Program-made: the position numbers and the translations under genes
Shown here: positions 10,073 to 16,458 of the stretch, piece by piece
How the letters are laid out: each line of letters opens with the position of its first letter
Position numbering within the stretch: the stretch's first letter is position 1
Source of the DNA: Bdellovibrionota bacterium
Lineage (GTDB): Bacteria; Bdellovibrionota; Bacteriovoracia; Bacteriovoracales; Bacteriovoracaceae
DNA: 34,643 nt
Assembly (NCBI GenBank): GCA_030828105.1
Contig: JAURDE010000007.1
Location: forward strand, 1 to 34,643
Direction: 5' to 3'
The notes under the pieces: model-generated
Told to the model about the DNA's origin: nothing
Seen by the model: the letters and a program-made list of their open reading frames with translations, nothing else
Databases searched by the model: none

Positions 10073-11692
10073 ATGAAGCTTCTCTTAATTATTATAGGAC
10101 TTTACTCAATTTCAAGTTATGGTGGAGTGAATCTCAAAAATGGTAACTTCTATATAAATTATACTGACGTTATTGTTTCAGGAAGTGGACCTGAACTTTC
10201 AGTTGTCAGAACCTATAATTCAAAATCTACACACAAGGGTTGGTTTGGCTTCGGTTGGGGAAGCGATTTTGAAACAAAACTTGAGGTTTCACCAGATGGT
10301 TCTGTGACAATATTTGAAAATGGCTCTGGTGCTAGAACGAGGTTTACTCCTAAGGGCTCGAATGATCCATCTCAAGGAGTTGATAAAATAATTTCTAAAA
10401 TGAAAAGTAGGGCCAATATAAGTGATGTAGTCGCTGAAAATTTAAGAGAAAGATTATTAGGGGACTCTGAGTTAAGACTTGCCTACGCTAGAAAATTTAA
10501 GGTAGTTGCTGATATTAAAACAGGAGATGTCCTATATAGTTCTCTAAGAGGAAGTCAAAAATTAATGAAAACTTCTAGAGGATATAAAAGATTCTATGAA
10601 AGTGGGAAGTTTGAAGAATTTGATTTAGAGGGTTATTTAAAATTGGTTCAACAAAAAGATGGTCATAAAGTATTTTTGAACTATAAGGACAATCGCTTGA
10701 CTTCTATAAAAGATACAAAGTCAAAGCAACTTTTCTTTGAATGGTATGAATCTGGTAGAGTTAAGAGTATTTCAACGGGTTCAAAAACTAAGTCTTCTTA
10801 TGAGTATGATAGTGATAATCTTATTTCATCTACTGATATGGCGGGTAATACTTATAAATTTGAATATGATTCCTATCATAATATGAAAAAAGTAAAATAC
10901 GCTGATGGTAAGGAAATGACAATTGCTTATGAGCCACAGACACAATTCGTAACCAATATTGTTGATAAAGCTGGTTTAGAAACAAAGTACGAATACGGTA
11001 AGAACTCTAAAAATCCTGAGTTACATTATTGGACTATAGTCAAAAAGAAAACAAAAAGTGGAAAAGAGTTTTCAAGCAAGTATGAATATGAAATGAAGAA
11101 AAGACCTGATGGTTCTCAATACACTTATAGAATTTTAACAGATATTAGTGGATTTGTTACTGAAACTACTTACTCTGAATGTTGTGGGCTTCCTCTAAAG
11201 ATTGTGAAAGGAGAGGATGTTACAACTTTTGAATATAACAAAAGAGGATTATTGACCAAAAGAAAGTCTTCTGATGGAGACTTTGTAGAATTAGATTATC
11301 ATCCTACTTTAAATAAAGTGACTAAGGTAGTTAACCCTAATGGATGGACTAAATTTAACTACGATAAGAAAGGTAATTTATATAAGGCCATGAACAACGT
11401 GGGTAAAGCTGTTTTATTAAAATATGATAGAAATGGCCGGATTACGGATATGGTTGATTATGATAAAAAGAAAGACGTGAGAAGAACGTTGGCTTTTAAA
11501 TATAATGCTCTTGGAAAGCCAACTGAAATAGACCTAAAAAAAGTAGGAAAGATAAAAGTTGATTATGACGGCTTTGGCGAGATTAAAAATGTTTCTTCTA
11601 ATTCTGGAAAACAAATGGCGGTTCAAGTAACTCAGGCGTTTCAGTCCTTACTGGAAATTGTTAGACCTGCTGGAGTTAATTTAAGCTTATAG
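10073..11692 (+). CDS. Secreted YD-repeat (RHS-like) protein, Bd0109-like by position
   Basis: The 539-residue protein begins with a short signal peptide (cleavage near residue 16, SSYGG) and the N-terminal RHS opening (VVRTYNSKS, then GWFGFGWGSDFE). From about residue 200 to 500 it has YD repeats of the type xxYDxxGxxxxxxxxxG, such as FEYDSYHNMKKVKYADGKE and FNYDKKGNLYKAMNNVGK. It lacks the Rhs core boundary motif and any toxin tip, so it is not a polymorphic toxin. In Bdellovibrio, Bd0109 is a periplasmic YD-repeat protein next to the Flp genes that binds the small secreted Bd0108 and is tied to pilus control; this gene has the same neighbours. Equivalence is inferred from layout and domain, not from alignment. 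Confidence 0.85.
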   Translation: MKLLLIIIGLYSISSYGGVNLKNGNFYINYTDVIVSGSGPELSVVRTYNSKSTHKGWFGFGWGSDFETKLEVSPDGSVTIFENGSGARTRFTPKGSNDPSQGVDKIISKMKSRANISDVVAENLRERLLGDSELRLAYARKFKVVADIKTGDVLYSSLRGSQKLMKTSRGYKRFYESGKFEEFDLEGYLKLVQQKDGHKVFLNYKDNRLTSIKDTKSKQLFFEWYESGRVKSISTGSKTKSSYEYDSDNLISSTDMAGNTYKFEYDSYHNMKKVKYADGKEMTIAYEPQTQFVTNIVDKAGLETKYEYGKNSKNPELHYWTIVKKKTKSGKEFSSKYEYEMKKRPDGSQYTYRILTDISGFVTETTYSECCGLPLKIVKGEDVTTFEYNKRGLLTKRKSSDGDFVELDYHPTLNKVTKVVNPNGWTKFNYDKKGNLYKAMNNVGKAVLLKYDRNGRITDMVDYDKKKDVRRTLAFKYNALGKPTEIDLKKVGKIKVDYDGFGEIKNVSSNSGKQMAVQVTQAFQSLLEIVRPAGVNLSL

Positions 11693-11702
11693 GAGCTAAT
11701 AG

Positions 11703-11927
11703 ATGAAAAAAAATATGATGTTGTTAATAAGTATTTTTCTATTTGCGAATTTAGCATTTGCAATTGAAGACTCCGAAGCCGATCGTTTGGGAGAAAATTT
11801 GGAAGATTGTCCTAAGGGTTGTGAGTGTATCATTGATACTGCACGAGGAAAGAGTGATAAGTCATCGATAATAAGGGTGGATGATACTCCTATGGAAAAA
11901 GAAGATAGCGAAACAATTAGCAAGTAG
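11703..11927 (+). CDS. Small secreted acidic protein, 74 aa (member A of a three-gene family; Bd0108-like by position)
   Basis: A signal peptide (MKKNMMLLIS... cut after FAFA-like AFA, about residue 20) is followed by an acidic mature chain of about 54 residues. It has LGEN, three Cys (CPKGCEC), the pattern C-x3-I-x3-R and the terminal tail TISK. The same pattern recurs in the proteins at 15986 and 16258. It lies 10 bases after the YD-repeat gene with an AGGAG site, so they are co-transcribed. This is the position of Bd0108 in the hit locus, also a small secreted protein next to the YD-repeat protein. No known domain is recognised, and it differs from its paralogues by an extra Cys-rich insertion. 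Confidence 0.8.
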   Translation: MKKNMMLLISIFLFANLAFAIEDSEADRLGENLEDCPKGCECIIDTARGKSDKSSIIRVDDTPMEKEDSETISK

Positions 11928-13367: not shown

Positions 13368-13806
13368 TTTTTCGTCTAACTTAGAGCATGGGTAGATTTT
13401 AAAAGAGAGTATTTTTGAGGCTTCCAAGTTTGATTGGGTTCAACTCTGCGCATTAATTACCTTACCTTTTATTCAAGAGGTTTCTATCAAAATTTTTTTA
13501 AAGTTGTAGATAAGGTCATTGATTAGCTTGTTATAAGGCTCCGCGTCTAAAGAATAAGGTCCAAAAGAAGACTCTTTTTATAGGGCCAATATATAGCGTT
13601 TTCAGCGGGTTAACTATCAACAACTCTCTTTGTCAGAGTTCTGTTAAGAATGACCTATTTGTTAAATAGAAACAAAATATTCCAATTATCACCTAACTTG
13701 AATAAGGCCTTTATCAGAAATAGATTGCATTTATAGAAAAAATATAGTTTTTTTCACGAAACAAAAGTTTGAATAGCTAAACCATAATTCTTGTAAGGAG
13801 GAATTG
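13368..13806 (+). other. 439-base non-coding region before the secreted-module operon
   Basis: No reading frame with a ribosome-binding site is seen on the plus strand. It holds three small hairpins: GTTAG/CTAAC at the dehydrogenase stop (13363-13380), AAAAGA/TCTTTT (13563-13578, followed by T) and AACTCT/AGAGTT (13622-13640). The promoter of the next operon must lie here but no clear -35/-10 pair could be fixed; TTGCAT at 13725 lacks a partner at normal spacing. A long leader or small RNA is possible. Confidence 0.5.
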
Positions 13807-14148
13807 ATGAAAGTTTTTAAGAAGGCCCTTATGGTTTCTCTAATTGCTAGTGCAGTAAGTGGAAATGTAATGGCAGGTGATGAGGACATAACTCTTTTAG
13901 GTCTAGATAATAATGGTAACGAAATTGAGATGCCAGTAAAGTCTAAAAGATTTAAAAAAAGAGTAAATAAAATCCTAAAGGCTTATTTAGGTGAGGCCAT
14001 CCCAGCTCTAGATAGAGCAATTAGAAGTGATTCAAAACTTAAACTACGAGAAGTTGATCTTGGTGTAAGTGTGAAAATGGGATTTGAAGTTCCAGAAGTT
14101 TTTGATGCATCTGTTGAGCCTGGCATTTATGTTAAGCTTGGTAATTAA
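13807..14148 (+). CDS. Small secreted protein with C-terminal copy of the recurring module, 113 aa
   Basis: The protein has a typical signal peptide ending in VMAG (residues 20-24), a mature acidic segment, a basic amphipathic helix (about 45-70) and a C-terminal stretch of alternating polar and hydrophobic residues (about 78-112, LREVDLGVSVKMGFEV to GIYVKLG). That last part resembles the module repeated in the next two genes. The ATG at 13807 follows a strong AAGGAGG site; an in-frame TTG one codon earlier is ignored. It is the first gene of a three-gene operon (20-base gap to the next). Codon use is biased to CTT, GTT, GTA and GGT. No known family is recognised. Confidence 0.8.
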   Translation: MKVFKKALMVSLIASAVSGNVMAGDEDITLLGLDNNGNEIEMPVKSKRFKKRVNKILKAYLGEAIPALDRAIRSDSKLKLREVDLGVSVKMGFEVPEVFDASVEPGIYVKLGN

Positions 14149-14168
14149 TTATTAGGGAGATACAAGAA

Positions 14169-15461
14169 ATGAAACTAAAAAATATTTTAGCAATTGGTAC
14201 ACTTAATTTATCACTTATTGGAAGTGTTTTTGCTGGTACTCTGAACCCAGCTTGGCATTTACTTCCAGAAGACAAAGGTTACACAGCTTCTATTGAAAAA
14301 GCAGCTAGCAGTGATAATCTTGAATCTATTGAATCCTTTCTAGATATTTATACTGGAACTCACCATGATATTCTTGAGGAGCAAGCATCTTACTCAACTG
14401 ATAAAGGTGATGGTTGGAAAGTTAAAAGAGTAAGAACTTGGTTAGGCCTTGGTGCTTCTGGAAAAATTGGTGTTGTTGGTTTTGGCGGTGGAAAAACTGT
14501 TAAAGTTGATTGGGAGCCAAAGAAAACTGCAAAGTCTAATGAAATTGTTGAAGAGGATACTGCAGACGTAGTACTTAATGAGTATACTGAGAAGTCTGAT
14601 CTTGATGCTCAAATTGAGCCAATCATCAAAAATCTTGTTAAGTCTGGAAAAGTAAAAAATGAAGCTGAGCTTAGAAAAAATCTTAAAGCTAAAGCTGTTG
14701 AATTCCATGAGTATACAAAGGGTATGTACTCTGTTGGTGACTCTGTATGGTATGCTAAAAAACTTAGACTTGACCTTACAATCAGTGCTTCTGGTAAAAT
14801 TAAGACTTTCGTAGTTAAAGTTGGTGGAGATGTAAGAGTAAGACTTGAATGGGTAAGACTTGCTTCAAAATCAAAAGATAAAGCTAGAGCTGATAAGAAA
14901 AGTATTATCGCAAGGTCTACTTCAAAACTTATCACTAAGCTTTCTCAAGATCTAACTGCTGCGACTTCTTCAGTTTCTGGTAAGTACGGGTTTGACCTAA
15001 GTGAAGTAAAGCTTTGTCTTGGAATGACTGCAGAAGGTAAAGTAGTAGTTGCTTCTGTTAAAGGTGGAATCAATCCATGTGTATACTTTGGTAGACAAAG
15101 AATCACTAAGTCTGACAAAGCTTCTTATGCAATTGGAAATGATGATACTTTCCCAATGGCAAAAGAAAATAGTGAAGGTCTGTTCGAGTACGCATCAAAG
15201 AACAAAATTGCTTATGAAAAAGGTTCTAAAGAGTCTATCTTCAAAGTTGATAGAAAGAAATTTAGAAGAGGGATCCAAAAAGCTTATAAGTTTGGTATGA
15301 AGTTCGCTAAAAAAGTAACTAAAAAACGCTATGCTAAGAAGAAGTGGGGAATTAAGGTAGTTAAGCCATCTTATTCTCTTTCAGTTTCTGGAAGTGTGGG
15401 AGTTGCTAAGCTTTCTGGTAAAGCAGAGCTTGAATTAGTATTTAAAAACCTAGCGATGTAA
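14169..15461 (+). CDS. Secreted protein with four related beta-type modules, 430 aa
   Basis: A signal peptide (cut after SVFA, residue 22) precedes a lysine-rich mature protein with no domain I know. Four stretches of about 35 residues resemble each other: 83-117, 194-230, 273-309 and 393-426. Their shared pattern is an aromatic/basic entry (GWKVKRVR, VWYAKKLR), then alternating strands around ASGKI or AEGKV, a Gly-Gly turn and a strand ending in an aromatic (VDWE, LEWV, VYFG, LVFK). This fits repeated amphipathic hairpins, as in surface or outer-membrane beta structures. Helical or charged linkers separate them. All roughly 25 Ile codons are ATT or ATC, none ATA, unlike the neighbouring genes, which suggests very high expression. 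Confidence 0.82.
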   Translation: MKLKNILAIGTLNLSLIGSVFAGTLNPAWHLLPEDKGYTASIEKAASSDNLESIESFLDIYTGTHHDILEEQASYSTDKGDGWKVKRVRTWLGLGASGKIGVVGFGGGKTVKVDWEPKKTAKSNEIVEEDTADVVLNEYTEKSDLDAQIEPIIKNLVKSGKVKNEAELRKNLKAKAVEFHEYTKGMYSVGDSVWYAKKLRLDLTISASGKIKTFVVKVGGDVRVRLEWVRLASKSKDKARADKKSIIARSTSKLITKLSQDLTAATSSVSGKYGFDLSEVKLCLGMTAEGKVVVASVKGGINPCVYFGRQRITKSDKASYAIGNDDTFPMAKENSEGLFEYASKNKIAYEKGSKESIFKVDRKKFRRGIQKAYKFGMKFAKKVTKKRYAKKKWGIKVVKPSYSLSVSGSVGVAKLSGKAELELVFKNLAM

Positions 15462-15489
15462 AAAACATTAGAATTAAAAGGATATAAAA

Positions 15490-15789
15490 ATGAAATATTT
15501 AATGACGTTGGCCCTTGCCCTTTCTTTTTCAACCGGTTTTGCTGCTGATAAGCCAAGCCTAGGAGAGTGGATTACAAATGAAGTTGATTCTCAGGTTGAA
15601 GAATTCAATAAAATGGAAGAAGCCGAAGCGACTATGGTTCAAGGTTGGTACTTTAATAAGGTTAGAGTAAGACTTAAAGCAACTGTAGGTCTTGATCTTC
15701 TTGCTAAATTTGAAGTTAAGCCATATATCGAGCTTCATTTCAAAAGAGGGAATCCAGAAGGATATAGTAGCTACAAGCCACAAATGTAA
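15490..15789 (+). CDS. Small secreted protein with one copy of the recurring module, 99 aa
   Basis: A signal peptide ends in GFAA (about residue 19). An acidic helix (22-47) is followed by one module at 52-86, starting GWYFNKVRVR and ending IELHFKR, very like modules 1 and 2 of the 430-residue protein upstream (GWKVKRVR, VWYAKKLR). The C-terminus is short and polar. An AAAAGGA site precedes the ATG, 28 bases after the previous stop, and a strong terminator follows, so this is the last gene of the operon. No known family is recognised; a partner or assembly subunit of the larger protein is a reasonable guess. Confidence 0.8.
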   Translation: MKYLMTLALALSFSTGFAADKPSLGEWITNEVDSQVEEFNKMEEAEATMVQGWYFNKVRVRLKATVGLDLLAKFEVKPYIELHFKRGNPEGYSSYKPQM

Positions 15790-15817
15790 TAAAGGCTAAA
15801 ATTTTCTAAGATAATGA

Positions 15818-15845
15818 GGGCCATCGAGAGATGGCCCTTTTTTTT
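15818..15845 (+). terminator. Strong rho-independent terminator after the secreted-module operon
   Basis: GGGCCATC and GATGGCCC pair perfectly around GAGA and are followed by eight T. Confidence 0.97.
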
Positions 15846-15985: not shown

Positions 15986-16183
15986 ATGAAACTAATACTT
16001 AGCTTAATTGTCTTAATGTCAGTATCATCTGGGTTTACTCAAGAAATGGGGGAGTCTCAAGCAGCAAGCTGTGATCAATCCATTCACCTTGGTAGATTTC
16101 AAACAGAAAAAGTTAGAGATATCTCTTCTGAGGAAGTTCAGGATGAAGTCGTTGTTGAAGAAGCTAAAACTATTTCTAAATAA
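15986..16183 (+). CDS. Small secreted acidic protein, 65 aa (family member B)
   Basis: The signal peptide is cut near residue 18 (SSGFT/Q). The mature part of about 47 residues holds MGES, a single Cys in C-DQSIHLGR, an acidic stretch (EEVQDEVVVEE) and the tail KTISK at the very end. Spacing and motifs align without gaps to the core of the proteins at 11703 and 16258. A strong GGGAGG site precedes the ATG. It stands 140 bases after a terminator, so it has its own promoter, which could not be fixed. The single Cys could allow a disulfide-linked dimer or a mixed disulfide with its neighbour. Confidence 0.78.
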   Translation: MKLILSLIVLMSVSSGFTQEMGESQAASCDQSIHLGRFQTEKVRDISSEEVQDEVVVEEAKTISK

Positions 16184-16227: not shown

Positions 16228-16257
16228 GGAGGTATAATTCTACCTTTGAGGTCCTTT

Positions 16258-16458
16258 ATGAAGTGGATATTAATTCTTTTATTTGTAGCTTTTCCGGCTT
16301 TCTCCGCAGAGCTTGGAGAGGATGTGAGTAATATTGAATGCACAAAGAGCATTCATAGACCTCGCCCCACTATATCTCAAGTTAAAACGAATATTGAGTT
16401 TTCAGAAGATTTTCCTGATGAGGAGGCCACTCAGGAAGCATCTACTATCCAGAAATAA
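16258..16458 (+). CDS. Small secreted acidic protein, 66 aa (family member C)
   Basis: The ATG at 16258 has a GAGGT site 6 bases upstream and gives a classic signal peptide ending in AFSA; an in-frame TTG at 16246 is the alternative. The mature chain has LGED, a single Cys in C-TKSIHRPR, an acidic part (EDFPDEEATQE) and the end STIQK. It is most like member B (C-x2-SIH-x2-R in both). A small inverted repeat AGGTA/TACCT lies just before the start. Its stop abuts the stop of the convergent minus gene. Function is unknown. Confidence 0.78.
   Translation: MKWILILLFVAFPAFSAELGEDVSNIECTKSIHRPRPTISQVKTNIEFSEDFPDEEATQEASTIQK

Follow-up and report, generated by a model that had tools for sequence, protein, structure and literature searches.

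The window analysed here, the whole 34,643-nucleotide stretch of DNA from a Bdellovibrionota bacterium of the Bacteriovoracaceae, carries three closely spaced genes, A, B and C, with gaps of 20 bases between A and B and 28 bases between B and C. An earlier interpretation made from this stretch without database searches (the sequence-only reading) had described them as an operon for three exported proteins, and its gene set and coordinates on the + strand are correct. The ORF list places the start of gene A at a TTG one codon before the ATG at 13807, and this ATG is preceded by AAGGAGG. The genes, their putative signals and the six modules that they encode are as follows.

13795..13801, + strand, Shine-Dalgarno-like AAGGAGG upstream of gene A, read from the sequence
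13807..14148, + strand, gene A, 113 aa, predicted to be exported, one module and an N-terminal beta pair (ITLLGLDNNGNEIEMPV)
13936..14142, + strand, module A, residues 44-112 of A, hairpin 78-112
14169..15461, + strand, gene B, 430 aa, predicted to be exported, four modules B1-B4, Pepco-like
14301..14528, + strand, module B1, residues 45-120 of B, hairpin 83-117 at 14415-14519
14586..14867, + strand, module B2, residues 140-233 of B, with an additional helix in front, hairpin 194-230 at 14748-14858
14904..15104, + strand, module B3, residues 246-312 of B, hairpin 273-309 at 14985-15095, the Pepco-matching stretch
15240..15452, + strand, module B4, residues 358-428 of B, hairpin 393-426 at 15345-15446, with a cationic amphipathic helix RKKFRRGIQKAYKFGMKFAKK
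15490..15789, + strand, gene C, 99 aa, predicted to be exported, one module
15553..15762, + strand, module C, residues 22-91 of C, hairpin 52-86 at 15643-15747
15816..15845, + strand, intrinsic-terminator-like stem-loop (15816-15839) and T run, immediately 3′ of gene C

The N-termini of A, B and C in the window are all signal-peptide-like, and at 39 loci a simple rule for a hydrophobic N-terminus finds the same feature in 37/39 A, 38/39 B and 33/34 separate C proteins, which bears out the earlier view that the proteins are exported. Judged by these N-termini, A, B and C are predicted Sec-exported envelope proteins. A lipobox-like motif is also present, again by a simple rule, in 14/39 A and 5/39 B proteins. 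Elsewhere in the window, three small exported proteins of 65-74 aa (15986-16183, 16255-16458 and 11703-11927) are mutually related: all share a C residue and end in a TI[SQ]K tail. Two of them lie in tandem behind the operon, and a profile of the three found no other significant copy in the same genome. One of these small genes directly follows a gene for an RHS/YD-repeat protein (10073-11692; 539 aa), which has a DUF6531 start and apparently lacks a C-terminal toxin part.

Each module consists of an amphipathic helix followed by a long beta-hairpin, about 65-75 residues in all, with a 100-degree (helical) periodicity in the helix part and a 170-degree (beta) periodicity in the hairpin part. 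The recurrence described in the sequence-only reading is real, and the six stretches identified there align in register, but the unit is not the ~35-residue hairpin alone, because the preceding amphipathic helix belongs to it. The assignment of the stretches as beta-hairpins was sound, being borne out by secondary-structure prediction and by the beta periodicity; the hairpins show hydrophobic alternation and Gly/Ser-rich tips. The modules of B are separated by long, variable linkers, and B4 has a mean net charge of +9.6 over the module.

When the window sequence alone was compared by the Smith-Waterman method with 2000 shuffles, the pairs B1-B2, B1-B3 and B1-B4 exceeded all shuffles, B2-B3 and B2-B4 were reached by 7/2000 and 13/2000 shuffles, module C was marginal (B2-C, 38/2000; B4-C, 21/2000), and module A was not distinguishable from chance. 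Profiles built from about 30 relatives were then compared with hhalign: 13 of the 15 module pairs had probabilities of 81-97%, B4-C had 57% and B3-C 8%, and control segments (signal peptides, linker) gave values of ~0 against the modules. Because two amphipathic profiles can look alike, reversed and column-shuffled alignments were included as controls: 14 of the 15 pairs, with scores from 24.0 to 52.7, lie above the maxima of both the reversed (22.3) and the column-shuffled (15.8) alignments, B4-C, at 24.0, only narrowly exceeding the former. By profile-profile comparison, the six modules are homologous and distributed 1+4+1 over A, B and C, as had been proposed, and the evidence is now stronger than that first put forward.

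The modules are also related, as far as their profiles tell, to the Pepco and Trypco domains, a point missing from the sequence-only reading. The name of the Pepco domain refers to neighbouring bacterial peptidases. Protein B of the window matches Pepco (PF24393) over residues 246-294 with 26.5 bits (E 9.4e-6), 0.5 bit under the curated cut-off of 27; a Pepco match is found in 11/13 B proteins, and four orthologues of B exceed the cut-off (L029, 28.8; L030, 33.9; L031, 38.8; L033, 46.4 bits), the best of them with its match in module B1 (E 6.4e-12). In the window, neither A nor C matches Pepco. The likeness extends across the helix and hairpin of module B1 or B3, but the modules of the operon often lack the N-terminal part of the domain, and the operon differs further in having six modules on three exported chains and no peptidase neighbour that could be found. 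Trypco1 and Trypco2 (PF19493, PF19631) show weak similarity to B of the window and its exported relatives, always below cut-off (E 0.02-0.5), and no Trypco1 was found in the genome of the window at the default threshold.

Outside A, B and C, the module models match only four of the 1742 neighbourhood ORFs, namely exported stand-alone Pepco proteins, which match both Pepco and the profile of A (best about 39 bits). They are arranged in tandem, one pair in each of two genomes from the same family (L052/L093, at 8546-9337 of L093 in G023; L055/L094, at 732-1498 of L094 in G090), neither of which yielded an A-B-C operon. Like the proteins of the operon, each has a signal peptide and one module, but the pairs are two one-module genes without B or C, possibly a simpler, older arrangement. 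A search of plasmids with a stand-alone exported Pepco protein gave no match.

VMAP conflict systems contain Trypco1 and Trypco2, two uncharacterised domains, next to trypsin-like peptidases (PMC7159879). This association, together with the homology to Pepco, would suit an exported regulator of a peptidase, that is, an adaptor, inhibitor or substrate, as the names of the domains suggest. The neighbourhoods, about 8 kb on each side of the 39 loci and less at contig ends, make such a function quite improbable: a GNSGG motif of the trypsin-like kind is encoded in only 1/39, and for this motif the loci as a group lack the peptidase adjacency implied by the name Pepco, in a search that covered GNSGG-type motifs and not caspase-like peptidases. 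No family of neighbouring genes other than A, B and C themselves is shared by more than 10 loci, and no recurring neighbours of a VMAP/Trypco conflict system are present; in contrast to the VMAP ternary systems, the proteins of the operon are exported and adjoin neither a trypsin-like peptidase nor a recurring conflict-system gene. Among the PADLOC defence families there is no match for A, B or C, and the stand-alone protein of L052 gave only weak rows (E 0.02). The largest other cluster of neighbours, from 10 loci, resembles a mixed group of sensor kinases and was not convincing as a conserved partner. A second type of A-B-C operon (L057, L059, L063, L087), one of which is a second operon in the window's own genome (L057, G000:C217), adjoins a PepSY-like membrane protein and a carboxylate-amine-ligase-like gene, both named by eye.

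Proteins related to B occur in 30/129 genomes of the same family and 45/368 sampled genomes of the phylum, and 42 of the 44 genomes with a match to A also have B. A scan of named genomes, which detects close relatives only, returned two loci (one isolate; record label Epsilonproteobacteria MAG B11_G4), and no relative was found in viral contigs, in PHROGs or by sequence search of the PDB, nor any NCBIfam match above cut-off. B of the window shares at most 37% identity with B of the other 38 loci. Across the 39 loci, which represent at least seven families and nine of which were kept out of model building (L078-L081, L084, L086-L089), the module models found exactly six modules in the same order, A, B1, B2, B3, B4 and C, at every locus (39/39). 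In a second batch of 15 loci, the models found six modules in seven; one of the seven, L119, has A cut by the contig end, and the sets of L110 and L115 are incomplete at contig ends. In the most divergent loci (L105, L106, L116-L118) the models found 3-5 modules, and six were reached when the remaining ones were read by eye. The same batch includes a damaged copy, L112 (G069:C182), in which B is interrupted by several in-frame stops and its first module is shortened; it is probably a decaying extra copy.

In a tree of module sequences, some branches of which, including that of B2, are weakly supported, the modules cluster by position and not by genome: 39 B1 modules fall in a clade of 40, and the clades of B2, B3, B4 and C hold 39/39, 38/38, 39/39 and 38/38, whereas the module A sequences do not form one clade. 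This clustering indicates a single origin of the six-part set, which was already fixed when the family began to spread and has been retained since. B and C form one protein, with C at its C-terminal end, in L066, L069, L071, L089, L090, L107 and L109. In the B tree, the first five of these fusions take up three separate positions (L066/L071; L069/L090; L089); L107 and L109 are further cases, and A is fused to B in L105.

The long, variable linkers and the strongly cationic B4 would be in keeping with independent binding proteins, arranged like beads on a string and with ligands such as surface polymers or lipopolysaccharide, that have a module in common without joining into one complex. The number of free beads usually drifts, however, and the constant 1+4+1, the fixed identities of the positions and the repeated fusions would be unexpected in such proteins, for which there is only a slender chance. 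Taken together, the constant count, the fixed position identities and the fusions at both joints point instead to a single complex of fixed size. In agreement with the proposal that the proteins are parts of one assembly, which the strict gene order, the B-C and A-B fusions and the six constant modules support, we infer that A, B and C are physically present in one complex.

The operon can thus be read, with a probability of roughly one half, as encoding an exported three-subunit complex in which six Pepco/Trypco-type modules are closed into one assembly of fixed size, probably a scaffold or binding ring. A, B and C would meet in the linear order A-B1-B2-B3-B4-C, and the assembly would close at a fixed size. 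Its simplest form would be a ring of pseudo-six-fold symmetry, either periplasmic or on the cell surface, for which the part of a scaffold or binding ring is more probable than that of an enzyme. The lipobox-like motifs and the strongly cationic helix of B4 suggest contact with a membrane; the motif in A, and sometimes B, of some relatives and the amphipathic helix of B4 may hold the assembly there. An outer-membrane location, as worded in the sequence-only reading, is possible. The constant count could also reflect descent without closure, though the loci are very divergent.

It is also conceivable that, in the outer membrane or in a target membrane, the six hairpins combine as a beta-barrel or pore of twelve strands, two from each module, with the helices staying outside the membrane. 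The amphipathic hairpins are long (in module A the predicted strands span 15-16 residues), their hydrophobic alternation and Gly/Ser-rich tips would fit a barrel, and a fixed number of six hairpins would give a closed barrel of 12 strands. This arrangement is live but less likely, and indeed quite unlikely, because in every module an amphipathic helix has been retained with which the hydrophobic side of the hairpin could be shielded, as in a soluble alpha+beta domain. There is also no match to any solved barrel, and Pepco/Trypco relatives are mostly not known to be exported. The helix and the Pepco/Trypco relation, as read from the profiles, make a soluble alpha+beta domain more likely than a membrane hairpin alone.

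Structure prediction, for which the input comprised the window sequences and two named loci only, gave no confident structure of B or of module A, but is consistent with secondary-structure elements of this kind. AlphaFold2 models of B from three sequences had a pLDDT of 34 and are usable for secondary structure at most, whereas module A, modelled from 18 module sequences (pLDDT 65, pTM 0.38), was predicted at modest confidence as beta-beta-alpha-beta-beta, the first beta pair being N-terminal in protein A. Searches with the model of module A by Foldseek and VIA-align gave nothing significant, the best PDB match having E 0.24 and Z 4.2 on a helix-plus-sheet fragment; low-scoring rows, the COMMD ring among them, were disregarded.

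A broader and rather doubtful extension of the closed-assembly reading is that the Pepco/Trypco fold is itself a self-assembling former of rings or barrels, and that the operon is a hard-wired, six-part exported version of it, a pseudo-six-fold ring or 12-stranded pore built from three chains. If this were true, the structure would explain the role of Pepco and Trypco in conflict systems. All that is otherwise known of Pepco and Trypco is that they are small, uncharacterised domains and that those of the Trypco type lie next to peptidases; here, the Pepco/Trypco-type module is predicted to be exported and is locked in a six-part, three-gene set, the count and position identities of which have been kept despite great divergence. 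Module numbers as constant as this are a rare indication that an assembly is closed, and a single structure would inform the whole group of domains.
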